Assembly: GCA_029964075.1 (NCBI GenBank)
Contig: CM057129.1
Span: forward strand, 17,041,430-17,105,429
Reading direction: 5' to 3'
DNA from: Patiria pectinifera
Lineage: Eukaryota > Echinodermata > Asteroidea > Valvatida > Asterinidae
DNA: 64,000 nt
The notes beneath the pieces were generated by a model. It searched no databases. It had not been told where the DNA came from and saw nothing but the letters and a program-made list of their open reading frames with translations. Below are positions 8,620 to 41,693 of the stretch, in pieces. Within the stretch, counting starts at the first letter, position 1. Each line of letters begins with the position of its first letter. Both the position numbers and the translations under genes were made by a program.

Positions 8620-8803
8620 TCATAGCATCTGGTTCTCCACTGGGTGAAGCAGGGCCATGTGCTCCGCGCCTTTAATGTTGAGCTTGTGTGTGGTGTAGTA
8701 GTGGATCATGTGTGGGATTCCTGCAAACGGTTTACTGAACTCCCCCAGGACGTAGCCCTGGGAATAGCAGACGATCTTCATGTGCATGAAACCTTTTGCA
8801 CTC
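8620..8803 (-). CDS. SHB-like: SHB-like adaptor, last coding exon (C-terminal half of SH2 and stop)
   Basis: Acceptor TTTTTTTGCTACAG; the first base completes the Lys codon split after exon 7; the stop TGA is at 8622-8620. It encodes SAKGFMHMKIVCYSQGYVLG, then IPHMIHYYTTHKLNIKGAEH and MALLHPVENQML. It aligns along its whole length with the vertebrate SHB C-terminus ([39 protein letters not shown]). As in the family, the protein ends directly after the SH2 fold. Confidence 0.9.
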
Positions 8804-11800
8804 CTGTAGCAAAAAAAGTCAAGAACAATCAATAGTTATAGAATGTTAATAATATCGGAGTCTTATATAGCGCACGTATCTACCAACAATTAGGTACTCA
8901 AGGCGCTGGAAATTATGTCTATTATTAAAGAAAGGTAAATAAAGTTTATGAGAAATATGAGACCCATTATGTAGTACCTTATAATGGTTTACAAGGTACT
9001 GCGGCGCATAATGCAGCCACTGCCAGAAACACCAGGGCAAACCCCTTCTCTTAGCGATAAGTGTTACTGGGTTCTTTAACGTGCATTACACAACACACGG
9101 GACCTACGGCTTTACGTCCCATCCGAAGGACGAAGCAATAATGGTAAAGTGCCTTGCTCAAGAGCACAAGCATCATGTTCCCTTGGTCAGGATTCGAACC
9201 CATGTACCACGGCACACGAGTCGAACACCGTAACCATTGGACCACAGCACCCCATGTTGACAGTACTGAGGCCAACAGGGGCATTACTTGTGAGAAGTAT
9301 TACCCCCTGGTTCAGACAGACGTTCCAGAGTCACGCCGAATCAAATTAAACTCAAGATTTGAATTAAATACACAAAAAGTCCGACGTCTCTGAAACAATG
9401 AGGAGTAACTAGACAAGCTAGATGGCAAAGATCGATGGTAGGAGTCGTTCAGAATGACTCAAGAGCGACTTGGTTTCAGATGTCGCTATAGTCATGAGCC
9501 AAACTCATTGTGAATGTTGCAAAAGTATGTAAATATATGTAAATAAGTAGTGACTATACACCATATCCAACAATCCACCAATAGAAACTATTATATAACC
9601 GACATACCGATCCTTGTCATTTGATTGGTGGAACTCACATCACGTGGCATTCGTTATTGCTCCCATTCATGCCGAGCCTCAAAAAGTACTATCCGCCCAT
9701 GGGGAATGGGAAATACTATTCAACAGTTAGGATCATGACGCGCCATTTGTGTGCAAATGCATGCTGCTGGTGTGCGCGTTCAGCATTGCGCGTAGCGCGT
9801 ATTGTTCCAAAGAGCCATTGCTACAGCGTTGGGTTAAAACATTTTCGTGAAGGGGTGGTTTGGAAGAGAGAAATACATTTTCCTCCAGTTTTGTATTGAA
9901 AAAAAGTTCAAATATATCAAATGACAAGGATCTATATAACAGTTATATAAAACAAATATTGAGTGGCTTTAAATTGTGAAATGGGAGGAATATTATCGCT
10001 CGGTAAATCTGGACTTTTCCAGTTCACTCGGCTTCGCCTCGTGAAATGGAAAAGTCCAGATTTTACCTTGCGATAATAATCCTCCCATTCCACACTGAGC
10101 CACTCAATATTTGTATAATATTTGTGGATTTTTAGCGCGTCATTTGTAACACGGTGTGATAGCAGCATGAGGGCGGCCAAGAAGCAGAGATTGAGTTTTC
10201 TTTTCCTCCTTTCGGCCATAATTCAGAATAGGATATGTCTGTTGACCTTTATAGGTCAGAAATTGCTCAGGAAATACAGTGTCAGATACGGTGGTACTGT
10301 TCAAAAACAAAACACAAAAGTGCTCCGCAATGCCGGCCTGTTGCAAAGATTGTGTGTTCTTTGGTTGTACACAATCCCCAGTGTTTTAAGTTCGACTATC
10401 TGAAACCAGAAATCTATTTGGGCTTGACTCAGTTCGCTCCTTATCCATTTGGTTTCGCGCGACTATGGAACACCAGTAGGAACCAGGGGTTACATATGTG
10501 ACATATTTCATATGATCATTGTACAAAAACTGAAAAGACTCTGTAGAGTATATGTATATCACACATTTACATGTACCCTCTTTTATTATTCTCATAGACT
10601 TTCAAATATAAGAGTGCCGTGGCCTCATGGTCTGGAGCATTGAATTCATGGTCTGCAGGTAATTCTGCAGGTTGTGGGTTCGAGTCCAGCCTGCGGCTAT
10701 GGTGCGTGTGCCCTTGGGCAAGGCACTTTGTCACTCATTGCTTCTCCCCACCCAGGAGTAAATGGGTACCTGTGAGGGCAGAGGTGGTTATTATTGTTGA
10801 TTTTGCTTTGCGCCGAAATGGCAGCATCGAGCTGTATACTCCGACGGAGCGGAGATGGTATTTGGAATGTTTCATTGGCCCAATTAGTAGGGTAATAATG
10901 ATGAAGCGAGATGAAACCTTGTAGGTATGAAGCGCTATATAAGCACCACATCTTATTAATATTATTATAATTCCATGGTAACTTGTGTTACATTTAACAG
11001 GTTCATTTTGTGAACTCTGTGCTGTTATTCTCTGAATTCAAAGCATTTAGGGTGGATTTGTCTCACAGAAGATCCCTATAAGGTTATGCATTAAGGTTTT
11101 TATGGTTAACTCACGTTACAAAAAAAGGACATTATTACATTGTAATAATTTTTTTGAAAGTTTCCTCCAACTGTGCACTGTTGGAAAAATCTTTTCAGTG
11201 TCCTTACATCATTAGGATGTAAGTCACTTGCAACCATAACAAGTAAGTTTTCAACTAATTTTGTGTTGAAACAGAAGTACATTTTCATTAAACTAAAAGA
11301 TTAAACTAATCAGTTTATCTCTTAAAATCAAACATAATCTGTGGGGGAGGTGTTATAATACAAATATTGACTGTTCTATCTCAGGGTGTAGTAAAACTAT
11401 CCTCCCTTGGTGATCCATAGACCGTTCCATTTCCCTCGGAAATCAATATTTGTATAATATTTGTTTCCAATAATGACTGATTCTAAAATTATCCTAATTA
11501 TTTCCTCTGATAGACTCAACATTGTTCTTAAAACAATACCATTGTACAACAAAACAATTTTGTGTTGTGATATGGTCCATGGTGTTTTTTTAACATCCTC
11601 TGGGGTACAATGGCAGCCCCAGGTGTGCAAAACACCATGAACCACATCATAACAAATCCTAAAATGGCCTAAATGTACTTAACACAGAATTGTGTACTCA
11701 CTTGAGTGATAGGGAATAATCTTTCTGTGCACTTTCACTCTGCCTGACCAGATAGCTGCATTCCTTGCACGGCTTCAAGAGCTTCTCTGCTTCTATTCTG

Positions 11801-14800
11801 GACAACTTGCCATGGTAGAAACTGTTGGCATTCAAACAAAGGATGTTGGCATTAAAACAAAGGAAACAGGGATGCCAGTGGCTTTTTGCTCCAGGGCCGG
11901 AATACACCATACATAATCACAACACAATAGTATTGATCCTTTTTTTGATTGACAACTAAGCTTGAAATACCAGCTTGCAAAAATGAAAAACTAAAGCCCA
12001 GTGTACCCCTTTCCGATTTTACCGGTTCACCGGACCAGACACCGGACGGTCAGATCGATCCAAATTTTCAGCGCACACCTCTGAACGATGGCCCGATGAT
12101 CCGGTGAACTGGTAAAATCAGAAAGGTGTGCTCCGGGCTTAAGTAGTGTTAAGTACACTGTCTGAGACTCCAGCTTTTCACTAACTCCCTAGCCAAATTT
12201 TTACAGAGCTGCAAAACAGGAGATACTGCTAGGCAAACTTCTATGCTAAGCATGAATCAGCTGGGTACCAGTCATGAACATAATACACTGCATGGGATGT
12301 TGGCCGGTGACCTGTTTTGCAGAGCACATAATTTCTCTACTTAGCAGCCCAACGGAACTGGCCCCTGGTATTCAAGGCATATAGGATCATTTACACTTTA
12401 TGCATTTTGATCGTTTCCGACAATAACACCACTCAAAATCTAAAGAAAAATGTTGGGTAGATACTTATAAGATGGAATTTGCATCGGGGTGATGTAAATC
12501 ATTCTCAGGTTTTGCTCTTCATTGACGTATAGACACTGTATACTCTGTGTGTTACCACCCGAGTGAAAGTTGGAAAAAAAATCACTCGGGTGGGACTCGA
12601 ACCCATGACTGCCTGCTTTCTAGTGCAGACATCTTACCACTCGACCACCGAGCTTGCGGGATCGGTTGGCTGGTTCGAATGGTGGATATTACACTCTTTG
12701 AGAAAGCAGTGAAAAACCATGCATCTTTTGATCATGAAACACGATTTGGTCCGTACCACTTTTTTTTCATTCCTATGATCAGTCAATTGACTGATCGTTG
12801 GAAATCGCCCACATTTCTTGATTTCTTCTTTAATGACAGCGAGACAGATGGAACCATTTCACGGGGTGTTAATCCAAGTAAGCTTTTTGAAAACAATTCA
12901 GTAGGCTGCTTTTGGGATCAAAGTAAATGATCCTATATGCCTTTAACCCACTCCACTCATGATTAACCTTTGCTGATCTAGGCTCATGTTGGGATCGATC
13001 TTCTCTCCCTGCACTTCGTGCTTGCGTCTCAGCTCCAGCTTCAGGTCCTTGGCCATGCCGGAGGGTTTCTTTGGGGAGTTCCTTCTGGAGTTATCGGGCG
13101 TGGATGCTCCTGACCTAGACACAGCGTTCTTCTTCTCTTTCTCTGAGAGAGAGATACCAAAATGAACTACAATGTAAGCTTTACCCTTCATTCTACTTTT
13201 GTAGTTAATCTTCATGCACTTTGAAAAAAAAAATTGGCTAGCATGTTATGGAGATCAGGATAACACACTGAGGCCACGTCCAAACTACTAGACTACGGCT
13301 AGCAATTATACAAGCAGCCTATGGAAGCAGGGATCCTCTACACCAGGATAAATTGCTTCCCCAAATTTCTGGTAAGATGGTATGGCATTTGCACATCGTG
13401 CGTGCGCGTTCGTGAGACTTGGCAGTCTTTCAGTGGTCAAATTTCTGTCAGGACGCCATCTGTGGGCGATCATGGCGTGCGCGCATTGTTCTACATGTTC
13501 TATGCATTGTTCTATGCGCAGACGCGGCATATCACGCATAAACCGGTAGACAAACCGTTCCATACATTTTGTACTCAAGCTCAGATGAGTCGTTTATCCT
13601 TGCGTAGAGGATCCGTGATGGAAGCAACTGAAGCCACCCATAGACATGTGCGTTACTACTGCCAGCAACAGCCAAGGGTGCATTCCAAACCCCGGTCTTG
13701 TGTTGAATGAACACGAAAACGGGGTTTCGAACGATGAGAACCAACACGCGAATGGTGTTTGCGAACAGGATTTTCACTCCCCAGTTATTGGGGAGAAGAT
13801 GAAGAACCTCAAGAAAAAAGATGGCAGACTTAAGCCCCTGCCGCAACTTGCTTTGACATTCTGTGCATAAAACTGAAAGCACTCACTGTGCAGGAGCAGT
13901 TATGATATAAACCAAAAAAAATTTTACGTGATCATAGAGTGGAGTGGAGTGGGCTTGTCTTTGGCAGTTTCTATAGCTGTTCCGGGATTAAATTATTTTT
14001 GCAAGATCATTAGTTTCCCTTCTTTTCATTCGGCATTTTAATAATTATGGTGGCTGCCATCTTGAATTTTCGCCCAGCTCCACTCCACACGCACCACACG
14101 CACTTGGGCGTTCGTAATCGGCGGGTCACTTGAGAACAGGGATTTGAATACGCCTCAGCTTCCACCAACATAAATGGCGACCAGTATTCTACAATCTAGG
14201 CCTTATTTCATGACGCTAGAATCTTAGCTTTAAAACATATGTACAAAAACTAGGTACCTACATCGCATGGGTGAGGAACAACTTTGGGTTGGTGCACATT
14301 CTAGCAGCTACATGTAAGTATTCTGTGGTTTACAGGGTTAGGGCAAAATTTCTCTGTTAGTGCTGTAAGCACAGAATGGTGATAACGGGTAAGAGCAGGA
14401 TTCCACTGTTGGCAAAGCTGTGAAGTTTTCACCCTGATGCACCATATGGATTGAGATGTGAGTGTCTGTCTCACTATTTAGGGGTTTTTCCCCTCAGCAA
14501 TAAAATAGGGTCTTCTGCCCAGCTTTGAGCGACATTTTCCTTCACTAGGTATCTTCTGTTCTTGGTTACATAGTAGTTGTAATGAAATCATCCGCAGAAA
14601 TAAATGAACAGTACCTTTTTTTGAATCAAAATGTAAGGAAATTCAAAGAAATGACTTCTTTGGACAAAGCCTACCGGTATTTTAAAACTGACTTGTTTGA
14701 ATGTAATCAAGTTACATGTATCTCAATACAGATGGTTTGAAAAAGTACATTATCTTAACTGATTGTTACTGTATTGCAATAATTATGATCAGTACATTTA

Positions 14801-17800
14801 TAGCACATGACTTGCCACAAACAAACTCCTAAATGCCTACAGGGATTGTTAGGAAAACTACAGACAAAGTTACACAATGTATGACAGTAGTTTACATTTT
14901 GATGAACCAGCTGTTGATGTCATGCAGCATGCATCCCTTTCTGGTTGTGAACATGCATCTACATGTACCTGTACTTTCCAGACAATTTGTCCAGAGTATA
15001 AGTATTAAACTTTCTCCATGCAATTAAAAAAACTTCCAAAACTTTTGCCCAAGCATCAACATCAATGAGCATTTCCATGGACAGTGGGTAGTACAAAGCA
15101 AACTTTTCCAAATGTCCAGCACCCGCCATACAAACGCCACGCTTTGAGATATCATACGTGCTGCACTAAAACTCAATGACTTTCTGTGATTTTTGTTTGC
15201 ATGCTGCTCGCTGCACGTTATCAACAGAGGGCGCCCTGAATGCAAACCATGGTCACTACGTCTCTCTACCCCCACCTGTCAAGACCTGCGACATTTGCCT
15301 ATTCTTCTGTATCCATTCCCAGGGCTGGTCATAATCGTCCTGTGGCCGGGTATCGCTCTCGGGACTACTCCGGCCAATCCCGCCCAGGTGGGCGACATCC
15401 GACTTACTCCGCGACCGGTTACACTCACCGCCTGGGGACTCTGGCGGTAGCCGGGGCAGACGGTGGGACCGCCACTCCCAGGGGTTGTCATACTCGCCCT
15501 GCGGCCTCATGTCGTTCTGCGGCGTCTGGTCTGGGGCTGGGGACAGCATGGGACCGTCTGTGCCGTTCTCCTCGGGATCCCTGGCGGCGGCTTTCTCCTG
15601 TCCGGTATTGAAGCTCACCTCCTCCCAGTATTGGGCTTCATCAGGAGTCTCACTTGCCGACGTCCTCCGCGTGATCTCACTGACGTCTGGCGGCTCCTCG
15701 TACTGGTGCTGGAGCTGTTTCTTGGAGTTGGTTGGAGGTTGCTTTTTAATATCTGGAAAAAACAGGGCAGAAACTGCATTAAACATACGATGCAAAGCCT
15801 CAAATTGGCATGATGGAAAACTAAAGTTGATATGGGGTGACACCTACGGTAAGAACTGGTTCTCTAAAAATGACTACTGTACATACATGTACAAGGCGCG
15901 AGGAACATTAATACCATGCATAAAATAAACACAGGGTCCACTTTTCCCCCGTTCCTGTTACATCTCAATGATTGTATAATTCTGCATGCACTCCTAAACG
16001 TATTTTTCCTCCCAACGTTAGTATTATGATGCAAACGACCTACACAACAATTCAAAATTAGTTCAAAGTCTTTTTTAATGACACTTGAAAGGCAAATTAC
16101 AAATTTCAGAGGTCACAAGCACAGGAAAACAAGTCACAATTCTGACCCTAAATTTATAGAATGACGAGAATAGGTCCACCTTTATGCACTATGAACTGTT
16201 GTACTCCATGTTTCTAGGACTAAGTAAACTTTTCTGTGTAACCTTATCTTTCTTCTTCCTTTTTTCCAAATAATTTCTACCTAATTCACTTCTTTGTCTT
16301 CTTGTTTGTACAAAGAGTCATTATTTTTTTAATATCTTGGAATGAAAACAAGTATGGAGATTAACCCCGCTTGAACAATAGGATGTGGCGAATATAAAAG
16401 GACAAGTGAAAGAAGCAGACAGACTCAAGCTGAAACTGAAAGAAACAAAAAAGAAATCATGTGATCACAAAAAAATGAGAAATAACAAATTTGCCATTAT
16501 GAATAGGAATTCCCCGTATGTACTGTACAGTAGTGTACCGATACGTACATGAGAAACTGATACATCCTGTTACAGAAGGCAAGAACTTTTTAACAATCAC
16601 TCAACGGCAACAATAGGGTGTCAAGACCCCAGATATATGGCAGTCTTTTTAATGCCAACAGGAAGTGATGAATTCACACCCTAATAAACTAGAGGATCAA
16701 CAAGTGAGCCGTTTCATGTACATGTGCACACGAACCCTACAAACTGGTATACTTTCAAGACTGTAGTCTGTAATAAACCTTATTAACAGTACATACATGT
16801 GGGTCATTCCACCGGGTTGGGACACAGTGCATGTTACATCCATATATTTGGTCATATTCTTAAAAGTATCAATGCATTCTAAACAATTGCGCAACATAAT
16901 ATTTGTGTCCAAATCACCCAATGGAAGTGTGACATTTGGGGTTGGACACGGTGTCCATGTTACATCCACTAACAAGCTATCATTTCTGCTCCATTTGATA
17001 CCTGACTACCATAACAAAAGCTTTGCTTAGTGTGTTGCATGTAGTGTAATAAGTACATAAAGTGAATTTGGGTCAAGTTTTACAGAAATCAAAAAAAAAT
17101 TGGTACAAATAAAATATTTGGATGTAACATGGACACAGTGTCAATGTTACGTCTGAATGACATTTTTGCTCATATTTTTGGCAATATACATTCAAATGAT
17201 TTAAAACTTTCTGCAGTAGTGAAACACCCAACAGCCAATATTACGTAGAGCAACTGCTAGCAAGGCATTCATGCTTTTCTTAATATGGTCATATGTCACA
17301 CATTGTGTCCCAACCCGGTGGAATGACCCCTGTACATAGGACCATTAGCTTATTGCGCAATTTTTATTTAAAACAACAGTTGCATAAGTTACCAAAAGCA
17401 ATGTTATTAAGTGTTATTGATTTAACCAGATGTATTTTTTTTTCATTATTATCACTGAGAGTGACATATATGTGGGCTAAAAACGATGACGAAAGATTTC
17501 ATAATCTTTTTAAATTTCTCCAGTTGTTCACGATAAATGGGGAATATTTTTTACAAACTGTTTACACTGTGAACACTTTACCAGGGAGAGCAACACATTT
17601 CATGTTATATCCAATGAAAACGTGGGGAAAAAACACTGAAGTAGTGAATAAAACAGACAGTTTCTTGGAAGTTGGATGTGCCGGTGCGACCCCAATTGGG
17701 CACTGATTAAACAGACACACATGCATGCATGCAGTTCATTTACTACGCGATTCTTAACATGCATGTATACAAGTATATGAATTGGAATAAAAACATCTGC

Positions 17801-20800
17801 AAAGCCAATGAAAATTTGATCGCAGGTCAAACATACATTTCCCAAATACGTACGGTGCACAACTGAACTCACAATAATGTACTGATTTTACATTGGGTCA
17901 TTCTACAAATGTTGGGTCCGCTAATCCACTTTATCCTGGGTCCGCTAATCCACTTTATCAAGGGTCCGCTAATCCACTTTATCCAGGGTCCGCTAATCCA
18001 CTTTATCAAGGGTCCGCTAATCCACTTTATCAAGGGTCCGCTAATCCACCTTCTGTGCTACATGTATATCTGAAATACACGTGCATGTATGACTTTTGTA
18101 AATTCTGAATGCACTTCTTACTTAATTCCTATCCAACAAATAACAAATTAGTTTGAAGTCATTTTTGATGAAACTTAAACAGCAACTTAAAAAGTACAGA
18201 AGCAAATGTTCTCAAAGTTTGTACAGACCACTTGCATATTGAGCCACATTCAGTTGCTGCACACACTGCTAAGGTTCTTTGTTTTTATGCAGGAGGGTGC
18301 AATAATGTTTCAGAAACTCTTTTATCTTCATCAATATGTTGGAATTTTGAATTCGAGAAATATCTTGCTTGGCAATGCACTCGGTTGTGTAACAGCATGC
18401 AAATATGCACTTGGTTGTGTAACAGCATGCAAATATGCACACATACAGTGCACGTACATGACAAGGATCTACATATAAATGGGTCTTTCTATAAATTTTG
18501 AGGGTCCCACAATATGTGACATTTTCCAGTCCCTGTTTTCATTGGTACTCTGTGCTTTTCAATTCAAGTGTCATCAAGAATGACTGCAAACACGTTTTAT
18601 CTGTTGAGCAGGTATTTTGCTATTCATAAATCACTCCTGGATCAGACTTATATAAAAAATAAAAAAAGTCAGATGTAACAGGCAAAGGACAAAGTTAGAC
18701 CCAAAATTTATAGAATGATCCAAATATGGCTACATGTACACACCACATGACAATATTTCCAGTACGGCAGATACCGTAGGTGAAGGGATTGTGCCTTTCA
18801 AGCATGGCATTTGACACACAGTCAGAGCATGGAGCTAAAAGTATGTCATGAGACAGATATTTGGTGACAAGGCCTTTGCAGATTTGTCCTTTGAAAAATT
18901 AAAGGTAGAATAATAAGCAATGGCAGCCATTTTGAAAACTTTGAAAATTGCTTGTAATTCTACCTATATTTTTTTCAAAGGACAAATCTACAATGGCCCT
19001 ATAGCCAAATATCTCTCTCATGACATACCCTGACCATGTGCCAAATTCCATCCTTGTATCATCTAAGGCACAATTCCCCCAAATATTTCCCCTATCTGCA
19101 GTGCCTCACTATAAGTTACAGTACATGCGGCATCATGCTCAAAAAAGGACTTGAAAAGTCAATTCTCCTGAACAGCAGACTGGAGCCAAACAGACACAAA
19201 AGCTCCTAAATGAAATGGGAAGCGGATGCCTGTGTGGTTTCCTGTTGACTTGCTTGATGGTTGTATAGTCAACTAAACTACAACCACAATCCAGTACATC
19301 AAGGACACAACGCAAAACATGCAGCAACAACTGACCATTACACTGTGTGATTGGCCAATGCATTATGCTTGGGCAATTCTTAACATTTTTTTTTTATTTT
19401 ATCTATTTGGATTAATCATGAAGTCATGATCCTGTTTAGAGTTGATTGCAAAATCCCTTCCCCCCCCCCCAAAAAAAAGCATTAATGAAGATAAACGTCC
19501 AATATATCTTTGTAAGAAGTGAATCATTAATGATGCATACATGCTTTGTGGTCTGCATGAAAATGACAAGGTTTCAGTTAGCGGGACATATGTAGCACTT
19601 GCTGTTACAACCTGTACAGGTGCCATGAAATGTTATCCTAATGAGTGGTAGCGGTTGGTTTCGACATGACTGTGGAATGCCGACACAGGTCATGAATACA
19701 TGTGAGATTCAGGTTGGGATCTGCAAACCATATTTTCAGTCGTTACTTGGTTTCGTGAGGGCAAAAATGGATTTAAGGCAATATTTGCGATTGAAATCTT
19801 GCAAACATGAAAAAAGTGACAGACTCCTTTGGGCACATGTAATGTATGTTTCATGTCAAGATCATTGTGAAGTGCAGTTTAAATCATATGATAACTGCAA
19901 GCAGTTTGCTGCCACTTGATGACAATGTTGATTGCAAATGTGCTAGGTGCCCCATGTAAATAGCAGAATGAAATATGCATATATGCAATTAAAGTATTAC
20001 ATGTAATTTGGTTACAATGGCATCTGCCATATGCAAAATAAAAATGCATGCATAAATTATGCGACCATCTTGATATGGAATACGCATGATGCAGACTGCT
20101 TGGTACATGTACAAACATGTACAAACATGTACAAGAAATAAGGATCATGCATCATATCCAAGCAATTACCATCCAAACCATTCAGGTGTAAACTGCACGG
20201 CATGCAATATTTCACCTCCATGCTCATTAATATGCATATCACATGCAAATTTTGAAAGTACACGATGCCATATGCCAACCGAAGCCAATTTTAAGAAGCT
20301 GCAGATGGCAGAAAAGCTGTGCTACATTGACAGTGTAACCACGGCAAAAAGTTCAACCTTCATTTTATTTCAAGGCCCCACCTTGCAAAAAACTACACCG
20401 TGCTTCTTTCAGAGGACAATATTTGTTCATTATTCATCATGAGATTCTGCTTCCAGACTTGCATGCTCTTTGTTGTGCCTACTGCTTAACCTTCACTCCC
20501 TTCTGTCTTTTACTAAGTAATGGACCAAGTCCGCCAAAATCCATTAATCACGCTGCTTCCAATGCATGCTTATCTTTTGGCCTCCAGACCCAAGTCCATC
20601 ATAGTCCATCAATATTTAGTCAAACCAGGCCTGCAGGACCAAGTCCCTTAAAATCCACCAAAATGAGGGGGTGGATTTTGATGGAGTTGGGGAGGTTAGG
20701 GTTAATGTCTCCACAAAGTTAGCCCCAGTGCTACTTCAGCAGAACATCCTATGCTCGGTAGCGGGCATGAAATTGTCTTTCTTGCTTTATTCACAATTTG

Positions 20801-23800
20801 AGAAACCTAGCAGCTGCCTATCAAGAGCCTCGGATCATTGAAGTTAAGCTGTTCCTTTCAGGACTGCAGATTACCCATGACCACTTTCATGTTGCAGGCT
20901 AACCAATTTCATGGTGCCACTAAACACAAGATGTTTTTGCAAATTGAAGCAAACTTTGTCTGTTTTTCGTTGGGACCGTAAGCAGTCAGTTCAGCAAAGA
21001 GAACTTTCTTACAACATGAAATTTTACTTTCAAGAAAGAAACACCGATGGCTTTGTCTATGGCTTTGTCTATGGCTTTGGCTTCACCTCTGGCTCCGGAA
21101 TCCTTAGCCAACTGGAATCTTTCAAACAAGTGGCCCTACTCTGAACTTTGACATCATATTACTAATGTGGTGCTAATATAGCACTTTCATACCAAAAGTC
21201 TCAAAGCGCTTCACAATTATTACCCCTTGTTCATCAGGTCATGATGAGACTAGTTTTTGCAGCAGCTTTTTGAGATCAGCGCATCTTGGTCTGTACCTTC
21301 ACAGGTACCCATTTATACTCCTGGGTGGAGAGAGGCAAATGTAGTTAAGTGTCTTGCCCAAGAAAACAAGCCCCATGTTCCCCATCAGGATTCGAACCCA
21401 CGTAACCATGGTACATGAGTCGAACACAACAACCATTGGAGTACAGCACTAAATCAGAAAACTGGCATGACATTTTGAGAAAGAGCCCCCCCATAAGTGA
21501 GGAGCAAAAGACCAGAGGCTGTGAGTCTGAAACCAAAGCCGGAGCCAAATCTGAAGAATGATTGCTATGGGATGTATACATGGGATGCATTTGGGTCATT
21601 CTATAAATCTAGTGTCAGAAGTGTGACATTTTTCCTGTTCCTGTTACCTTGGTACTTTGTAATTTGCCTTTCAACTACATGTATCATTAAGAATGACTTG
21701 AAACATTTTTTTTATTTGTTGTGTAGGGAGTTTGCCATTCACAATCACTCTTGGCGGAAGACTGCATTAAGGAGTGCATGGGACTTATAGATGTCAGATG
21801 TGCATGTAACAGGGACAGGAAAAAGTGGACCCCAAATTTATAAAATGACCCATGTAGCTATGGGGTGAATGTTAATTTACATCCTCACCATGTTGGCATG
21901 CACCTAATATTTTCCAAGAGACATGACATGCAATCCCAGAGCCGGATACTTACGCTTGATCACATCATACGGTAAAGAATAGTCATCCTCCGGGATGGCC
22001 ATTCGATTAGGGTCCCATCCTTCCTCCGTGATGTGATGCTTCGTTTCTACGGCAACGCATTAGTGTGCAAGCAAGGAAGATGAACAACGCAAGAAGTGAG
22101 AAGTTAGATGTCAGTACTGTCAGTTGGGCCACTTAATAAGAAACTGAGCGAATGGGTTAATGATTGGCAGGGCCTCTTCAATCCCGATCTGAATACTTCA
22201 ATCCCGAAGACACCTTTGACTGCCGCATCTGAGACCTCAACCCTTCAAATGGCAGTCAAATTTAAAACCGGTTTGACATGAGGAGGACAAGAGTTGTTCG
22301 CCATCCAAATCCCTTCATCCCTTTTAGGGATCGCATTGGCGTAGCTGTACTTTCCTCGTCTTCCACAGCTGTGACCCGGGTTCAAATCACGCCAGGGCCA
22401 ATACGTGGATTTGGTTTTCAGTCCATACCTGATTTTGTGGGTTTTCCCTAAAATATAATTCTGGGGTTTTCCTCCCACCACTAAAACTGTAAATGAGTAA
22501 TTTCCTTCCACATCTTCCACCGAGGGACCCCACTGGAAATAAGTCAATATTATTTTTCAGAGAAGTCCTTTCATTTTCTTTTATTAACATAGTCATTTGT
22601 TCCATCTAACAAAGAAAACGTCTGCTTTAGTTTTGATCAATCATGTGAGGGAACGTTCCATTTTTTAAAAAATTCCAATAGCTATCAACAGAATCAAGCA
22701 ATAAGATTGGAAATCATATCAGAGCAATATTTGATATGACATGCAGAAAAGAGACACAATTTCAATTCAGAACTTGAGTCTCAAAACTAGACAGTTTCTG
22801 TGTCAGAGTGTCAAACAAGAATTAAGCCTGCTCAAATATTGTTGAGGCTAATCTCAGATCAAAAACATTGAAGTCCCAAGTTGATTGAATCCGGTTTTTT
22901 TAAACCGTCTGGGAATTATTCATCGAACATTCCCAACTTGACTTTATTTTGAGTGTGTGTCTCATGCAACTTACTTTTGACTAGATCATACGGCAAGCTA
23001 TAATCATCGTCTGCGTAGGGCTGGTTTGGGATTGGGCCGTCGTCTGGCAAGAAGCCAGATCGCATCTCTTGAGAAGGCAAGGCAATATCCATGAGGCAAG
23101 GCAAGGTCCACGAGGAAATAGGGAGCAGAGGTTAGTTGGTGAACAGGTCAGTGATGGTTAACAGCAAACAGCATTGATATTAATGGCAAACAAATTAATT
23201 TGGTGTTACATTTACATGTATATAGCGGGGTGCTTTCTAAGCAGAGACAGAATCAAGAGCATCTTGCTTAGCACTAATTTTTTTTAACAATCCAACTAGT
23301 GGAAGAGTAAGGAGGAATTTCAGTGGAAAAATTGCACTGCAGACATTGATAAGTAGCTCTACTGAAATGTTGCATACATAAAAAAAAATGTGAAAGGTGG
23401 AGATGCAGAAGCAGGGCTGTAACTATGGCAAAGATGCTAAGAAAGATTAGTTGCTAAGGACAAGTTGTAATGAAAATGACAAGGAGGATTTCAGCAAGGC
23501 AATAAGGTGTATTAAATTGCTTCAATGTTATAACATGTTAAATGCAAAAGGACAAGAGTAGTCAAAGACGTGCGTTTTGAAGTCTTTTATTGTAAAGCAA
23601 AGAAAATTCCCCAAAATAAAAATGAAGACAATCATCTCCACGTGTGCCTTGTACTTTTTTGCATGTGCACCCTTCACGTGCCAAAAATACGCCACCGGTG
23701 CTCAAAAATAGCAATGGAAACTAGGTAATTGGTTAATCACCAAGAGGGAATCCTTGACACACATGTGGAGCTATATTAACGCACCGGTGGTAAGGGCCCC

Positions 23801-26800
23801 AATAATCAATTTCCTGATCTGGTTGTCGAAACTAAACCGACAAATTGACGGTAAGGTGACAGCGCGCCTGACGCAGAACTGTCAACTTACGTTTGACAAT
23901 TTCGTAGGGGACCGAGTAGTCGTCCTCAGCGAAGGGTCTGTTGGGGTTGGGCCCCTCGGTTCGGGGCGGGAGAATGCCGCTCTCGAGGGCCGCTTTCAGG
24001 ACATCTTTGGGATCACAGTAGTCATCCAAAACAATGGGCTGCAGAAAGGATAAAACACAAAGAAATGGATATACTTTAATTTCACAAACATGGCTTAATC
24101 TTGCTGAGAATTTGAAAGTGACATCTGACAGTGGAATTGTCTGAGTGTTAACTCAGTAACACTCACTACTAAAATAAAATTCATTGTTCATGGACTTTAA
24201 AATGTATTTTGAAATGAAGGGAGGAGCTTCAACAAATACATTGTATTTGAGTGGCCTGAAATTTCAAATTCGCAATGGACATTTTAACTAAGACATTCAT
24301 AATCTATTTAGGCGACAAACATTTGGGTAATTTTTTCTCAATTGCTCCAGGATTTGTCAGTTTTTTCTTTAGAAAAGCCCCTAGAGCTAAATCACCATTA
24401 AAGGCATTCCTTCCTTCTAAGTGAGGGTTTTTTTGGCAAAAAAACTAAAAACGGCGCAATTCAGCAGCACAATTCGGCCTTAAATGTTGTGGATGGTAAC
24501 CCCAAAGCTCACAGTCACAGTTAATATTTGTTCATGCATGTGGAAAGGAGCCCAGCTGATTTCCTTCAATCTCGTTCGCCCAGGACGAATGCAAATTTTT
24601 TAGTTTTTAGTTTGTGCCCCCAAAAACTCACTTAAGCCAGAAAGTAATGCCTATAATGCCGACTTAAGATTTATGGGGCTTGTTTAAAGAAAAAAGTGAC
24701 AAATCTGAGAGAAATTGAGAGAAAATGACCTGAATGTTTGTACCCTGTACCTTTTCAATGGCCCGCTTTCACTTTTTGCAGCCAGGCCCATTTACATGTA
24801 TGTGTATGCATGCATAATTTTGAAAAAAGGCCCATACATGTATGTTTAACTTCATTTACAATAAAAAGTTGTCAATAAAACTTAATATCACGTTGTATAT
24901 TTTCAATGAGCTTATTTCTATGCATTGTTGTACATGTCCTTTGTGTACAAATCAAAGGGTTTGTGGCAGTCACATGTAATACATACAAAGTAATTACTGA
25001 CACCATCAATACTAGAAATAACAGGCCGAGCATTTCCTTGTACAGCTAGCCATAGCCCCAAGCATTTGATTCCATGTGACATCCTGTGCCTGTCTCTTCT
25101 CACTACTGTCTCAGAATGATGCCAATGCAATGATAGAAACCTCCTGAAAATTAAGCCTACATTACTGTACATCCACCTTCCATTATCTTTCAACCGGTAC
25201 AGGACTTTGCCCATCACTACTGGGCCCAATTTCACGGCGCTGCTAAGCACAAAAATTTGCTTAGCACAAAAATAGTCTGGCTTATAAAGCAGGTTGCCAG
25301 TCGAAACTCCACGTGATGTATATTGCTCGTGATTAGTATTCAGCTGTTGTTCACATGGAGTTTTGGCTAGTAACCTGCTTTTATAAGCCAGACTTTTTTT
25401 GTGCTAAGGAAGTGTTTGTGCTTAGCAGCGGGGTGAAATTGGGCCCAGGTCTCAAAATCAGACATCAGGACCAAGAATGATGATTTGTCTCCATAAATGC
25501 TACATGTACATGTGTGCAGTACTTTGAAAGGCGAAAGTGCACACAGCACATATTATGAAAACTGTACATAAAGTATACAGTTAATAAACTCTGTCTATTG
25601 ATCCTCCTGTCTCAAGGTTTGTGTGAATGCAGATATTGTAAGGGAAGGGTTTCCAGTCATGAAATTTCCCTGGACAACAAAACATGATTAATTCTTGATG
25701 TTCATTAAAGGGAATGTACATTGTACATTATTGGCTTTTGCTGTAATTTTCAGAAATGAACTATTTGAGGGGTCTACCTCCATGATATAATAGATCAAAT
25801 ATTGTTACACTGACATGTTTGAAGTTTTGTGTTTGAAAATGCTGGAAAAACCAAGAAAAACAAAAATGTTCAAGTAGTCTGGTTCCCTGACTCCACTAAA
25901 GATGAAATGGATCAATGTATTGATGCCGGAAAATTGTAAGGTAAGGGAACCAGTCTAGCTGACCTGCACCCGTTCATGAACATGTAACCAATAGCAAACA
26001 AAGTTTGGACTGGAAAAAAATGGTAAAGTTGGAGCAGTAGTTGAAGATAATTAGGTTTTTCCAACGGTGGTCGGCCGACCATGTATACAAAAATACCATT
26101 TTCTTGAAAATGACTTCACACCAGGTGCCATAATTTTACAGGATGCTTTAGACTGTCATTTACCAACATCCTAGTAAGGTATTTTGTAAAAACTTAGTAG
26201 CGTTATTTAAAGCAAATGGGGATGGGGAGATGTGTCAACATGTATATTGTGCCCACCCCTTTTTATTGGCAATCGTGTACCGGCTGTTACAGCCTCTCTT
26301 TAGTTGATCAAACTAGAGTCAAGGGTGTTTTTTCATCATTCAAAACTGACCTTTTTAACCTAAAGAAGAACTCTCTCAATTCTAACAACCCCTTTAATTT
26401 TTTTGTAATTTGAACATTTTTGGGGGTAGAAGTTGCAATTTTCGTAAGTGGTTTACGGTTGGTGCCATGCAATTCAGCGTGGTATTAATTGCGCATGAAC
26501 TCAAAGTGCATCGCGGTTATCGCCATCTTTAATTTCTTGTTGCGTTTTGTCGTTAAAGACGAGGCGCGTATGCATCATATTGGTCAAAGGAGCCCAGAGT
26601 GCGTGCGTACTCTCCGAGCGTGCCTCACGCGAGCCTTGTACCACTCAGAAAATGGCAGCCACCGGATCTGTAGATTACACAGTTGAACAAAAGCACACAC
26701 CTCAAAGATGGCTCCAGTGCAAACGGTCTATTATGTGAATATAAATGTGTACACAACTACACGGATGTTTATTTAATTAAAAACTGTTGTGCAAATATGG

Positions 26801-38800: not shown

Positions 38801-41693
38801 AAAGAGGTACATCTAACTGGCAGGTACACCTGGAATATCAATCACCTACAGTCAAATGTCTTTTATCGAATTAACAAGGGAATTTTTAACTGTTAAAAAC
38901 ACTTACTTAGGCCTAATTGATTTGGACTGCTGTGATTTTTAAAGCAATTTTTTTCCCAACAATGTACATTTTCAAGGGGGACTTTAATAGGGAAAATCAT
39001 TTGGGAACAACTACATGTAGTTGTCAAGTCCCTACATTCACAGTGGTTTTGTGAAGAGATGCTATATTTTCCATGTTTAAATAATCAGGATACAAAGGTG
39101 AACACTGAGCTATGGTGCAACATGTATTCTGAATGTCAAGATACATGTATGGAAAATGTAATTTTCAGTGGACACACAAATTTACAACCGATTAAGGGCT
39201 AGGATTAGCGCTGGCGATACTGATTTTTTTTTTTGATGGATAATGGACTGAGCATTCGGTCAAAAAGTCAAAACAAGTCGGGAATTTGTAGATTTCCAAC
39301 GATTTTGTTCAACAATTTTACTTCAGGTTTTGTGAAACTTTCCTCCACATTGGCGCAAGCGCAGCGTGTACTGCGCGACGCATGCTGCGCGATGTGGCGC
39401 AGAATGCAGCGGTGTTTTGTTGGCGGTTTAACAACCCCAGCATGATGGACTCTCGAACAATAAGAATGGGTAAACTGTCTCAGGCATGACTGTTTATTAC
39501 AAGTCTGAATTCCACGTGGCAAACGAATCATTCCCAACATGCCCAAGGCCACAATGTTGGCAAGCAACATTACAAATATTGGAAACCTTGAAAAAAGGCA
39601 GTCGGAGAGGATATGGGTTTTCATTTCTCAATGATCACAAGGGCAAACTTATGTGGTAATTTTTTCCTGTTGAATAAGTACGTGACTGCTTGTTTGAACC
39701 AGAGTTGGGGGAGAGCTAGTCCGAAAATTTGGGACTCTCAGTACTGTGTATGAGAGTCCCAAAACTTAAGGTATTGAAAACATGCACAACAAGAAACTAG
39801 ACTGGCACCTAAAACAACCAGTCCAACACAGCTTCAGTACTGCATCAATCAACCATGCCAAAAGAATTTAAGAAACATGTGGCATGAAGCGGGCACTAGT
39901 CTCAATTCACTACACATTTCTCCATAGTCAAGCCACCAGACTATTGACACTAAATGAAGAGAACAGTCTTTTCAAATAGTTGGACCATGGTTGGACATGT
40001 ACCAGTCTAGTATTTAGCCCCATTTTGAAATCACTTGACTTCCCTCTCATGTGCAAAATATTGAAGAAAAGTCTCCCTTAAAAATTAAAATTCAGTCTGC
40101 AAACTTGGTTGGTGAAATACTGAGGACATTTTCTTTGCTCCAGTGGAATTTTTGGAGAAATTTGCTGGCTAAACTGTGAGTAAAGTGGGCCTGATTTAGT
40201 TTTGCACGTTTCAGAGCACTCCAGAGCCCTGTCTGGGGGAGAGCATACACACACCTCTACCAATGTTGCAGTTGAGTCCATCACAAGTCCGGTCACAAGT
40301 AAATCACAAGTCCTTCCACTAGTGCAGTCACAGGTGACAAAAGATCAACAATAACATAGTTCATGTGGACAGCTTGTCACTGGATAAAACTTGTGATGGA
40401 CTTGTAAGAACTTGTGGACTTGACTATACTTTGCATTGTACATTCCAAATTACAACTGTACCTGGAACTCATCCTTATAATTTATATTGAAGTTCCCAGG
40501 ATTACACAATTTGCTTGTTCTTTTGGAGGAGTCAATGGTAAAATTGTATGTCAGTTTGCACAAATATTTGTTTAGTAATCATTATCTAAGAATACATGTA
40601 TGTATTATGATGATACTAAACTGTTTTTTTTGAAGTACGTTGTTTAGTCCTACTCTTGCATTTACATTTATGTAAAAAAAAAAATCTATACGAGTAGAAC
40701 TTGCAGTTGCATCATCCTGAGGAAACAACGTTCCAACCTGACGCTACTACTTCGGTGGTTTCTCAGTCCTGGATTCATGTCTTATCATCATGTTTGCAAT
40801 GACTGACCTTCATTGAGATGATATATGAGGAACAAAGTGGCATCAGATTGCAACATTCTTTCCCATCCTGAACCTCTTTGTGTTTACCACATTATTTAGG
40901 AAATGGCTGTACTTTTTTTGTCATTATGGCAGCCGTGACATGATTTCCAAAGATCTTCTATAATTGTGGCACTGCAAAAAAACATGGCTAATCTACATCA
41001 CATTTATTGCACACTCTGCAAGAACGCATTGTCAGGTCTGGGAACCAAACGACCGACTGCCATAATTACGAACCTCATTCGCGGGTAATTACAGATTGAA
41101 ATTTATATAATTAAAAAGGCATTTATCTCAGAATCTCAGAAAGTTGACCGGATGGATATCGCCGCTAGGCATCATCATCCAGTTTAAAAGACCATGAAGG
41201 CATGAATGAGAAGAAAAAAAACTGCATTAGAAAAATAGTATTTGCAAATATTCATATTCAATATCAAGGTGTGCATCTCATGATCTGGCATAATTCAACT
41301 TACTGTCTTTGTGTTTGGACTTTTTGGACCCCCTCCGCTGTCATTTCGTCTTCTTGTGTCCAACATCCCTTCACCTCCAACCACATTTCCTCTACTATTT
41401 GTACCAATCTGGACACCTGAGCCCGCACCGCAGCTTTTTAAGTCCACGGTTCCAGTCCCGTAAGAGGTCTGGCTACCGAACCTGAACCTCTCCACATTGC
41501 CGCTGTGTGGAGTAGGCGAGCTTCCCCGCGGTGATGTCTCGTTGGACCCGCGGAACACTCCCCCACCGCTTTCATCTTCGGAGTCGCTCATGGAACTCTT
41601 CGTTCTCCGATCCCCGCTCTGTTTATCGGTGTAATCTCGCTTTGGGGGGTGGGGAGCCTTCTTCCCCTGAATCTTTCGAAATAGTTTTTCCAT
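8620..41693 (-). CDS. SHB-like: SHB-family SH2 adaptor protein, whole spliced gene (8 coding exons, 559 aa)
   Basis: Gene-level entry. Coding exons in order of translation: 41304-41693, 23891-24038, 22975-23067, 21954-22046, 15276-15752, 12968-13142, 11702-11821, 8620-8803. Together they give 1680 bp, or 559 residues plus stop, close to the length of vertebrate SHB. Every junction is GT/AG and phases match (0,1,1,1,1,2,2). Layout seen: basic/proline N-terminus with PPKRDY; seven YxxP motifs at Tyr137, 171, 202, 233, 259, 329 and 382; linker GEKIDPNMSLDQQ; SH2 domain about 459-555 with YLVR and a C-terminal KGAEHMALLHPV. Known for the family: cytoplasmic adaptors downstream of receptor tyrosine kinases; the SH2 domain binds phosphotyrosine and phosphorylated YxxP sites recruit Crk-type adaptors. 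The order and the linker ahead of the SH2 match SHB closely. Which of the vertebrate paralogues SHB/SHD/SHE/SHF it matches best is not decided; it is probably the pre-duplication form. Untranslated exons are not determined. Confidence 0.9.
8850..9258 (-). mobile_element. tRNA-derived SINE
   Basis: Read on the minus strand the head starts near 9258 (GTGGTCCAATGGTTACGG, A-box-like) and carries a B box GGTTCGAATCC at about 9200. The body GAGCAAGGCACTTTACCATT follows, and it ends in GCGCTATATAAGACTCCG. The same head-body-tail order is seen at 10612-10970 (+) and 21163-21452 (-). Confidence 0.7.
9609..10113. mobile_element. two-module inverted-repeat element, copy 1
   Basis: Module 1 (9609-9932) has 17-bp ends GATCCTTGTCATTTGAT / ATCAAATGACAAGGATC and a CpG-rich, GCGCG-containing interior. 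A TATATAA-rich linker follows. Module 2 (9953-10113) is a large hairpin from CAAATATTGAGTGGC to GCCACTCAATATTTG, with CGGCTTCGCCTCG at its tip. The same order recurs at 33976-34440. No coding capacity. Confidence 0.55.
10612..10970 (+). mobile_element. tRNA-derived SINE
   Basis: Head GTGGCCTCATGGTCTGG (A-box region) and GTTGTGGGTTCGAGTCC (B box), then CCCTTGGGCAAGGCACTTTG, ending in GAAGCGCTATATAAGCACCA and a TTATTATT tail. These pol III promoter boxes and the tail are diagnostic for SINEs. Confidence 0.75.
11702..11821 (-). CDS. SHB-like: SHB-like adaptor, coding exon 7 (N-terminal half of SH2)
   Basis: 120 bp; acceptor GCCAACAG, donor AA|GTGAGT (phase 2). It encodes FYHGKLSRIEAEKLLKPC then KECSYLVRQSESAQKDYSLSL. 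This is the first half of an SH2 domain: FYHG replaces the usual WYHG; SR at the start of helix A; the YLVR arginine (residue about 485) is the invariant phosphotyrosine-binding residue. CKECSYLVR is characteristic of the SHB family. All residues needed for phosphotyrosine binding appear present. Confidence 0.9.
11994..12140. mobile_element. short MITE with ~40-bp inverted ends
   Basis: AAGCCC..GATTTTACCGGTTCACCGGA at the left pairs with TCCGGTGAACTGGTAAAATC..GGGCTT at the right. 147 bp, lying in the intron between coding exons 6 and 7 of the SHB-like gene. Confidence 0.6.
12588..12657 (-). pseudogene. tRNA-Ser(AGA)-like sequence
   Basis: On the minus strand: CTCGGTGGTCGAGTGGTAAG (acceptor/D-arm), an anticodon loop CTAGAAA as in tRNA-Ser-AGA, and TGGGTTCGAGTCCCA (perfect T arm), ending CCCGAG. 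The anticodon stem is imperfect and the long variable arm of a true tRNA-Ser is missing, so it is more likely a decayed tRNA copy or SINE head than a working gene. Confidence 0.45.
12968..13142 (-). CDS. SHB-like: SHB-like adaptor, coding exon 6 (linker before SH2)
   Basis: Acceptor TATCTCTCTCTCAG, donor AG|GTTAAT (phase 2). It encodes residues 402-458: a Lys/Arg/Ser stretch KEKKNAVSRSGASTPDNSRR, then RKHEVQGEKIDPNMSLDQQ. The last part matches the vertebrate SHB pre-SH2 segment ILGERVDPAVPLEKQ directly ahead of the SH2 domain, which fixes its place and order in the protein. RRNSPKKP contains SP and basic residues, a plausible Ser/Thr-kinase or nuclear-signal-like patch (inference). Confidence 0.85.
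13143..15275 (-). other. SHB-like intron 5: CpG-rich inverted-repeat remnant, otherwise nothing recognised
   Basis: About 13320-13660 holds an inverted pair (GGATCCTCTAC / GTAGAGGATCC with flanking GGAAGCA / TGGAAGC) around a GCGCG-rich centre, probably another MITE. The remainder to 15275 shows no exon or known repeat. Confidence 0.4.
15276..15752 (-). CDS. SHB-like: SHB-like adaptor, coding exon 5 (YEEP, YDNPWEW, YDQPWEW)
   Basis: Acceptor CTGTTTTTTCCAG; donor G|GTGGGG, chosen over an upstream CAG|GTCTT because only phase 1 joins exon 6. It encodes residues 243-400. Three YxxP sites are visible: QYEEPPD (Tyr259), GEYDNPWEWRS (Tyr329) and DDYDQPWEWIQ (Tyr382). YDQPWEW is a signature of SHB/SHD/SHE/SHF proteins, where it is normally single; here it is doubled about 53 residues apart, each copy preceded by RPQ. 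Between the sites lie acidic, Pro- and Ser-rich, probably unstructured stretches. The antisense strand is also open across this exon because of its composition, not because of a second gene. Confidence 0.85.
15934..16165. mobile_element. MITE, GGGTCATTCTATAAAT family, diverged copy
   Basis: Starts CAGGGTCCACTTTTCC and ends GACCCTAAATTTATAGAATGAC. Interior words (CACTTGAAAGGCAAATTAC) match the reverse of TTTGCCTTTCAACT in the copy at 21593-21851. Confidence 0.5.
16801..17329. mobile_element. MITE with 26-bp perfect inverted ends
   Basis: GGGTCATTCCACCGGGTTGG at 16801 is mirrored by CCAACCCGGTGGAATGACCC ending at 17329, and pairing extends to ACACA/TGTGT. The interior repeats ATGTTACATCC / GATGTAACAT with GGACAC several times. 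529 bp, no transposase. Confidence 0.65.
17895..18200. mobile_element. MITE, GGGTCATTCTATAAAT family, copy carrying a 24-bp tandem repeat
   Basis: Starts GGGTCATTCTACAAAT. The flanks inside (GAATGCACTTCTTAC, AGTTTGAAGTCATTTTTGAT) match other family members, but 17916-18055 is a tandem array of a 24-bp unit GGTCCGCTAATCCACTTTAT plus 4 bases. The right end is eroded. Confidence 0.55.
17916..18055. repeat. 24-bp tandem repeat, 6 units
   Basis: Six consecutive units beginning GGTCCGCTAATCCACTTTAT, differing mainly in the last four bases (CCTG, CAAG, CCAG). The sixth unit is diverged. Confidence 0.8.
18481..18721. mobile_element. MITE, GGGTCATTCTATAAAT family
   Basis: Ends GGGTCTTTCTATAAATTTTG and CAAAATTTATAGAATGATCC are inverse copies. 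241 bp. Confidence 0.6.
21163..21452 (-). mobile_element. tRNA-derived SINE
   Basis: Minus-strand head near 21450 (CCAATGGTTGTTGTGTTCGA), B box GGTTCGAATCC, body GGGCAAGACACTTAACTACA, and tail AGCGCTTTGAGACTTTTGG near 21200. A sister copy of 8850-9258. Confidence 0.65.
21593..21851. mobile_element. MITE, GGGTCATTCTATAAAT family
   Basis: GGGTCATTCTATAAAT at the left and ATTTATAAAATGACCC at the right. The CCTGTTCCTGTTACCTTGG interior is shared with 18481-18721. 259 bp, 103 bp downstream of coding exon 4 of the SHB-like gene in the direction of transcription (minus). Confidence 0.65.
21954..22046 (-). CDS. SHB-like: SHB-like adaptor, coding exon 4 (93-bp cassette, second YSLP motif)
   Basis: 93 bp, phase 1-1, acceptor TTGCCGTAG, donor C|GTAAGT. 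It encodes TKHHITEEGWDPNRMAIP followed by EDDYSLPYDVIK (Tyr233). Its ending is nearly identical to those of exons 2 and 3 (DDYSxPYxxxK), while its first half has diverged. The acceptor has a weaker pyrimidine tract than the other exons, which could make the exon optional. It is too short for ordinary ORF listing; I found it from the repeated motif and matching phases. Confidence 0.75.
22290..22520 (+). mobile_element. SINE-like sequence
   Basis: Contains GTGACCCGGGTTCAAATCAC (B-box-like GGTTCAAATC) followed by GTGGGTTTTCC and GGGGTTTTCCTCCCACC, a body word common in SINEs of marine invertebrates. The A-box region is not clear. Confidence 0.45.
22975..23067 (-). CDS. SHB-like: SHB-like adaptor, coding exon 3 (93-bp cassette, YSLP motif)
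   Basis: 93 bp, phase 1 at both ends, bounded by TCTCAAG and A|GTAAGT. It encodes MRSGFLPDDGPIPNQPY followed by ADDDYSLPYDLVK; Tyr202 is in a YxxP context. It has the same length, phase and C-terminal motif as exon 4 and resembles the second half of exon 2 (SGILPP..NPNRPFAEDDYSVPYEIVK against SGFLPD..IPNQPYADDDYSLPYDLVK). As a symmetric exon it could be skipped or duplicated without breaking the frame. An in-frame ATG-like start further upstream in the intron has no family support. Confidence 0.8.
23891..24038 (-). CDS. SHB-like: SHB-like adaptor, coding exon 2 (YCDP and YSVP motifs)
   Basis: The acceptor is a pyrimidine tract ending CTGCAG, read in phase 0 from CCC ATT GTT; the donor is C|GTAAGT (phase 1). 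It encodes residues 131-179. It opens with VLDDYCDPKD, equivalent to the ADDYSDPFD motif of vertebrate SHB, and ends with AEDDYSVPYEIVK, the first of three similar tyrosine motifs encoded at exon ends. The phases join exactly to exon 1 upstream and exon 3 downstream. The two tyrosines (137 and 171) both fit YxxP, the Crk SH2-type consensus. Confidence 0.85.
25221..25445. mobile_element. MITE with TGGGCCCAATTTCAC ends
   Basis: TGGGCCCAATTTCACGGCGC at the left and GGGTGAAATTGGGCCCA at the right. Arms continue through CTGCTAAGCACAAA and AGTCTGGCTTATAAAGCAGG. 225 bp. The same GCTAAGCAC words occur in a decayed form near 12230-12360. Confidence 0.7.
25740..26200 (+). repeat. dispersed repeat, family P, copy 2
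   Basis: Shares with 33390-33790 the blocks GCTGGAAAAACCAAGAAAAA, TAGTCTGGTTCC and GGGAACCAG, and with 1-380 (reverse) the GTCGGCCGACCA half-palindrome and TTTTCTTGAAAATGACTTCA. Confidence 0.6.
26290..26580 (+). repeat. dispersed repeat, family Q, copy 1
   Basis: Matches 49840-50100 in order: ATCAAACTAGAGTCAAG, AAAACTGACCTTTTT, GGTGCCATGCAATTCAGCGT and GTTATCGCCATCTTTAATTT followed by TTGCGTTTTGTCGT. No coding capacity. Confidence 0.5.
28391..29061. mobile_element. nested inverted-repeat element
   Basis: Outer ends TAACCCTAACCACC and GGTGGTTAGGGTTA. Long inner arms at about 28520-28655 and 28885-29010 pair closely (AGTCAAGTCCCACGCGC, GGATGCTGGCACGT, GCGAAGCCGCGAGGGCCTTT and their reverses). 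The centre is GCGCGCCATGGCGCGCG-rich. No ORF. Confidence 0.65.
30239..31290. mobile_element. nested MITE cluster, CTATAGTCCATCATTTG family plus an inserted AACCCTAAC-type element
   Basis: AGCTATAGTCCATCATTTG at 30242 and 30831 and the reverse at 31084 and 31268 mark several copies or halves. The AACCCTAAC-type element (about 30498-30830) interrupts the first copy, and CTATAGTCC resumes directly at its right edge, so the insertion order can be read. Confidence 0.55.
32030..32055. repeat. (ACATGT)n palindromic simple repeat
   Basis: GTGTACATGTACATGTACAT continued. Shorter runs of the same self-complementary word occur at about 20105-20135 and 27055-27110 and throughout the window. Confidence 0.7.
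32581..32930. mobile_element. MITE-like element with AGTCTCCGGTTTCTGGTATG arms
   Basis: AAAGTCTCCGGTTTCTGGTA near 32597 is mirrored by TACCAGAAACCGGAGACTTT near 32896, each preceded outward by a homopolymer and AGGCC/GGCCT. Opposed reading frames here are artefacts of the repeat. Confidence 0.5.
33390..33790 (+). repeat. dispersed repeat, family P, copy 3
   Basis: GCTGGAAAAACCAAGAAAAA, TAGTCTGGTTCC, GGGAACCAGACTAGCTGGC and CCAACGATGGT..ACCATCGTTGG (imperfect palindrome) in the same order as 25740-26200. Confidence 0.6.
33976..34440. mobile_element. two-module inverted-repeat element, copy 2
   Basis: Module 1 (33976-34269): AATCCCCGTCATCTGATTGG / CCAATCAGATGACGGGGATT ends and a GCGTGCGCGTGCAC-rich centre. 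A TATATAAAATAAATAAAATA linker follows. Module 2 (about 34290-34440): a hairpin with CGGCTTCGCCTCGCCTCG at the tip and ATGTTCCATTCCCAC / GTGGGATGGAACA arms. Same order as 9609-10113. Confidence 0.55.
41304..41693 (-). CDS. SHB-like: SHB-like adaptor, coding exon 1 (residues 1-130)
   Basis: Open from the ATG at 41693 to a consensus donor GTAAGT whose first base is 41303; it ends in phase 0 after NTKT. The start MEKLFRKIQGKKAPHPPKRDY was chosen because it parallels the basic opening and PPxRPDY of vertebrate SHB (MAKWLNKYFS..). An in-frame ATG 23 codons upstream (41762) is possible but gives a stretch without family resemblance. The remainder is Ser/Gly/Arg rich, low complexity, with several SP dipeptides (TSPRGSSP), a likely disordered region. 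The next intron is 17.3 kb, the longest in the gene. No YxxP motif occurs here (the one tyrosine context is YTDK). Confidence 0.85.

Follow-up and report, generated by a model that had tools for sequence, protein, structure and literature searches.

The 64,000-nucleotide stretch of Patiria pectinifera DNA analysed here (the window, whose own positions are used throughout) contains, on its minus strand, what is apparently an intact adaptor gene of the SHB/SHD/SHE/SHF type. The predicted gene model has eight exons in a single open frame of 559 amino acids, which begins with an ATG at 41693 and closes with a stop codon whose last base is 8620, and all seven introns are GT-AG (17265, 823, 928, 6201, 2133, 1146 and 2898 bp, in order). 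Our interpretation, which we regard as probable, is that this SHB-type adaptor carries a repeated docking unit of 31–34 residues which raises its valence of YxxP sites, and that the copies of the unit are old and have since been under purifying selection. The exons are as follows.

Exon 1: 41304..41693, minus strand; start codon, MEKLFRKIQGKKAPHPPKRDYTDK..., ending in phase 0 (from the gene model and the sequence)
Exon 2: 23891..24038, minus strand; 148 bp, phase 0 in and 1 out; first unit DDYCDPKDVLK, second unit ...EGPNPNRPFAEDDYSVPYEIVK
Exon 3: 22975..23067, minus strand; 93 bp, phase 1-1; MRSGFLPDDGPIPNQPYADDDYSLPYDLVK
Exon 4: 21954..22046, minus strand; 93 bp, phase 1-1; TKHHITEEGWDPNRMAIPEDDYSLPYDVIK
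Exon 5: 15276..15752, minus strand; 477 bp; RPQxxYDxPWEW twice (the aligned copies start at 15513 and 15354), and a YEEP site
Exon 6: 12968..13142, minus strand; linker, ending GEKIDPNMSLDQQ ahead of the SH2 domain
Exon 7: 11702..11821, minus strand; first half of the SH2 domain, including the arginine of CSYLVRQSES
Exon 8: 8620..8803, minus strand; SH2 domain, second half, followed by the stop codon

Exons 2, 3 and 4 have AG acceptors and gtaagt donors. The junction between the exon 5 donor and the exon 6 acceptor can also be placed in phase 0, a choice that leaves the cassette exons unaffected.

The product has a single C-terminal stretch (residues 460–535) that matches the Pfam SH2 family (PF00017; E 2.2e-15; score 56.9 bits, cut-off 21). 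It is encoded by the last two exons, 7 and 8, which are 60.7 and 62.5 percent identical to an approximate SHB-like SH2 sequence. Besides this C-terminal SH2 domain, the family features present are the RPxxxYDQPWEW docking site upstream of it, in two copies, and a DDYxDPxD site. A human SHB phosphopeptide, LPQDDDRPADEYDQPWEWNR (PMC9136244), aligned with both exon 5 PWEW units with scores of 78 and 85 (0/500 shuffles each), and the SHB phosphopeptide DKVTIADDySDPFDAKNDLK (PMC6003199) aligned with the exon 1/2 unit with a score of 36 (0/500 shuffles). An earlier, sequence-only reading of this DNA had described an SHB-type adaptor with related phase-symmetric exons and YxxP sites, and that description is supported.

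No SHB, SHD, SHE or SHF name appeared among the 60 of 107 matches shown when the PDB was searched with the SH2 domain. The spliced SH2 sequence had no confirmed relative in viral contigs (3 pattern-matching stretches) or in bacterial and archaeal genomes (28 stretches), which is uninformative on animals. In a Pfam scan of four single open reading frames (ORFs), the one holding exon 2 had just two matches, both sub-cut-off, and the remaining three had no match; the whole gene product had no PTB, SH3 or FAT-like Pfam match at E up to 0.1.

The repeated unit is about 31–34 residues long, with the core [ED]Gx(2)PN[RQ]x(3-5)[DE]DDYSxPY[DE]x[VI]K or a sequence near it. It is present in three copies, at the end of exon 2 (ending DDYSVPYEIVK), in exon 3 (DDYSLPYDLVK) and in exon 4 (DDYSLPYDVIK), each of which directly precedes a phase 1 intron; a shorter relative, DDYCDPKDVLK, lies at the start of exon 2. 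The coordinates, the common 93 bp length, the 1-1 phase and the shared DDYSLPYDxxK end previously given for exons 3 and 4 are all correct. So too is the observation that the second half of exon 2 ends in the same manner and with the same exit phase, and the interval proposed for the duplication, 21954-24038, spans exons 2–4 exactly.

To relate the copies, the first unit of exon 2 (E2a), the second half of exon 2 (E2b) and exons 3 and 4 (E3, E4) were aligned locally in pairs, and each score was compared with 2000 shuffles per pair. For whole units, no shuffle reached the observed score for E2b–E3 (z 17.7), E2b–E4 (z 12.4) or E3–E4 (z 10.1). The short unit E2a gave z values of 8.6, 4.1 and 5.4 against E2b, E3 and E4, with 0, 3 and 3 of the 2000 shuffles reaching the score. 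When the last 12 residues were removed, a trim length of our own choosing, E2b–E3 still stood out (z 8.4, 0/2000), E2b–E4 fell to z 3.2 (19/2000) and E3–E4 to z 1.5 (193/2000). The likeness between exons 3 and 4 is thus largely that of their last 12 residues. Because the trimmed comparison leaves only E2b–E3 strong, we take exon 3 to be related to the second half of exon 2, with exon 4 standing further off. The homology of the units is, in short, strong for E2b and exon 3 and weaker for exon 4. The sequence-only reading had treated exons 3 and 4 as a duplicate pair; their likeness is indeed above chance, but they are not the closest pair, and the copies look old.

The poor E3–E4 match outside the last 12 residues could also mean that exon 4 derives from neither exon 3 nor E2b, and that its end converged on theirs because selection favoured recognition by one and the same kinase and SH2 target. 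We consider this distinctly unlikely, given that exon 4 agrees in phase and length and that E2b and E4 have EGxxPNR in common at nearly the same spacing from the tyrosine. A hidden Markov model (HMM) of the four units, run over six frames of the window, recovered these same units at 28.7 to 69.0 bits; no other match exceeded 4.9 bits, and a reversed-sequence control reached 6.8 bits. The further copies that had been suggested for intron 1 were therefore not found by this model anywhere in the window.

The copies look old rather than recent, because synonymous sites are saturated and the compared introns share only 13-nt matches. Synonymous differences per site were 0.91 for E2b–E3 (30 codons), 0.99 for E2b–E4 (22 codons) and 0.80 for E3–E4 (22 codons), which is beyond correction, and nonsynonymous differences were 0.30, 0.22 and 0.29 per site, respectively. 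Where the residue is the same, agreement between codons was close to chance: the codon agreed in 4/14 cases for E2b–E3 (5.5 expected from the gene's own codon usage), 2/8 for E2b–E4 (3.6 expected) and 5/9 for E3–E4 (3.8 expected). The intron comparison covered introns 2 and 3 in full, together with the final 800 nt of intron 1 and the initial 800 nt of intron 4; the 13-nt figure refers to matches between different introns, and the strongest matches overall were inverted repeats within intron 1 and within intron 4. Overall, the divergence data suggest that the event was not recent and that the protein has been under purifying selection, although with so few sites they give only a rough lower bound on the age.

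These data bear directly on the idea that exons 3 and 4 arose from each other by tandem duplication, recently and within this lineage. The two exons are equal in length, phase and final motif, and theirs is the best codon agreement of any pair. However, even this pair is saturated at synonymous sites, the introns share no match longer than 13 nt in the stretches compared, and exon 3 is nearer to E2b than to exon 4, so that a recent origin appears highly improbable.

If the copies are old, the repeat may have been present in the bilaterian ancestor and been reduced in vertebrates, rather than expanded in this lineage. This would be a special case of the interpretation given above and does not compete with it; we think it possible, if somewhat doubtful. 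Vertebrate members of the family carry two YxxPY[DE] sites per protein, placed between DPFD and PWEW. The sites YMEPYE in SHB and YDTPYE in SHF fit such an ancestry, as does the synonymous saturation.

Several observations weigh against the view that exons 2–4 hold an old, selectively maintained repeat that raises valence. Beyond its motif, exon 4 shows weak homology. The exon model is itself sequence-based, and its exon 7 acceptor and exon 6 donor have low splice-site scores. The DPFD phosphopeptide from PMC6003199, with its score of 36 for the exon 1/2 unit, also scores 32, 35 and 35 with E2b, E3 and E4 (1, 3 and 1 of 500 shuffles), singling out no unit, and the SHB YMEPYE peptide has weak matches, the best of them at E2b (score 23, 8/500 shuffles). 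The SHF YDTPYE peptide, whose printed sequence carries a variant residue (PMC5707065), is at chance with E2b, E3 and E4 (145, 253 and 121 of 500 shuffles) and scores highest with the second PWEW unit (36, 6/500 shuffles). An assignment of E2b, E3 and E4 to particular human YxxPY sites was attempted and failed, as the printed peptides were too weakly matched.

The sequence-only reading overlooked a second repeated element. The motif RPQxxYDxPWEW is doubled within exon 5, where the two copies align with a score of 81, compared with 49 for the highest of 2000 shuffles, and share 32/45 bases. They are less diverged at synonymous sites than the exon 2–4 units (0.67 differences per site, 17 codons). 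Vertebrate SHB has, as far as is known, one copy of the element. The corrected picture of the gene is one in which two distinct docking elements, not one, each occur more than once. Within residues 1–455, 7 of 14 tyrosines lie in YxxP sites, where 20000 shuffles of the stretch gave a mean of 1.4 and a highest value of 8.

Because each of the three units sits directly before a phase 1 intron, unit copies could have joined the gene without damage to the frame. The YxxP tyrosines would be phosphorylated by an Abl- or Src-type tyrosine kinase and the pYxxP sites, of which the sequence itself holds only the motif, would recruit Crk/Crkl-type SH2 proteins, while the adaptor's own SH2 domain would link the complex to receptors. 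These steps are carried over from other family members. With seven YxxP sites, binding valence would exceed that of vertebrate SHE and SHD with their four, and skipping of exon 3, exon 4 or both, which the frame permits, might lower the number to six or five. With single sites parcelled into frame-neutral exons, site number would become testable by exon skipping, as both an evolutionary and a regulatory variable in an animal. The gene can be understood as an unusual variant within a known adaptor family. A literature search aimed at exon duplication in SHB found no paper, and among the titles and abstract openings listed by other searches none described an SHB gene with duplicated exons.

Whether exons 3 and 4 act as regulated cassettes, with one or both skipped under the possible control of an RBFOX protein so that docking valence is set by tissue, can be considered in the light of the surrounding intron sequence. 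Skipping exon 3, exon 4 or both keeps the frame, creates no stop at the new junctions and leaves 6, 6 or 5 YxxP sites. Both exons are followed within 60 nt by TGCATG, at these positions.

22963..22968, minus strand: TGCATG (RBFOX-type hexamer), starting 7 nt into intron 3, downstream of exon 3
21927..21932, minus strand: TGCATG, starting 22 nt into intron 4, downstream of exon 4; another starts at 52 nt

Drosophila and vertebrate Rbfox1 bind UGCAUG (PMC8742874). The hexamer is absent from the 200 nt downstream of exons 1, 2, 5, 6 and 7, and 5.1 percent of 60-nt intron stretches of the gene contain it; the chance of finding it after the two named exons is ∼0.003, before correcting for the fact that the motif was picked after looking. 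However, a second hexamer, AAAATA, has the same pattern, being found downstream of exons 3 and 4 and not of the other five, so that one shared hexamer is no rarity, and TGCATG also occurs upstream of exons 5 (by 168 nt) and 6 (by 76 nt). Scored with approximate frequency tables, exon 3 (6.9) and exon 4 (3.3) have weaker acceptors than exons 2, 5, 6 and 8 (9.8 to 11.6). Exon 7, which is required for the SH2 domain, has a still weaker acceptor (0.8). Splice-site strength was thus rejected as a mark of exons 3 and 4, because the weakest acceptor belongs to exon 7 and the weakest donor to exon 6. We take the TGCATG copies as a weak hint of regulated splicing, short of evidence for it, and regard regulated cassettes as unlikely. 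A more elaborate version, in which an RBFOX-type factor acting on downstream UGCAUG would set five, six or seven YxxP sites by tissue and so tune Crk recruitment within an old, selectively maintained repeat, with exons 3 and 4 as valence dials, seems to us very unlikely.

Some further features of the locus may be recorded. Tandem repeats lie directly upstream of the acceptors of exon 3 (23075-23115; 19 bp, 2.2 copies) and exon 7 (11823-11864; 21 bp, 2.0 copies). Intron 4 contains a 24-bp tandem repeat (5.7 copies, 17914-18049), and intron 6 a tRNA-like match at 12582-12654 on the minus strand (Rfam RF00005, 37.1 bits), possibly a piece of a short interspersed element. Elsewhere in the window, a plus-strand ORF at 43109-43912 matches Pfam TMEM70/TMEM186/TMEM223 (E 2.4e-08) and is transcribed away from the SHB-like gene (start codon at 41693); a reverse transcriptase fragment lies at 58767-59441 on the minus strand (Pfam RVT_1, E 1.8e-07). 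A 21-bp tandem repeat occupies 54853-55631 (∼38 copies), with several frames open over long stretches, and arrays of a 209-bp repeat lie at 45758-46257 and 47095-47488, where the surrounding repeated ORFs suggest a larger duplicated stretch.

Like vertebrate SHB, SHD, SHE and SHF, the gene product has an SH2 domain, a DDYxDPxD site, YxxPY sites and an RPxxxYDQPWEW site, and PMC9136244 and PMC6003199 list tyrosine-phosphorylated SHB peptides that contain the DPFD, MEPY and PWEW sites. It differs from vertebrate SHE and SHD, for which four conserved YXXP sites are described (PMC10798624), in having seven, the three YSxPY and two PWEW units among them; the four sites are needed for the function of zebrafish She, which no longer gave rescue once phenylalanine replaced all four YXXP tyrosines (PMC10798624). 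SmShb of Schistosoma mansoni likewise has a C-terminal SH2 domain from its last two exons, and a PTB domain was also not found there (PMC5026347); its 9 exons and 1159 residues contrast with 8 exons and 559 residues in our model. A further parallel to the array is the substrate domain of BCAR1/p130Cas, in which repeated YxxP sites serve as a Crk docking array and repeat number ranges from 6 to 25 among species (PMC5043372). Docking proteins of the BCAR1 kind rely on joint phosphorylation of several YxxP sites (PMC5043372). In contrast to BCAR1/p130Cas, the product described here has neither of the SH3 and FAT-like matches sought above, and its array is spread over separate exons.

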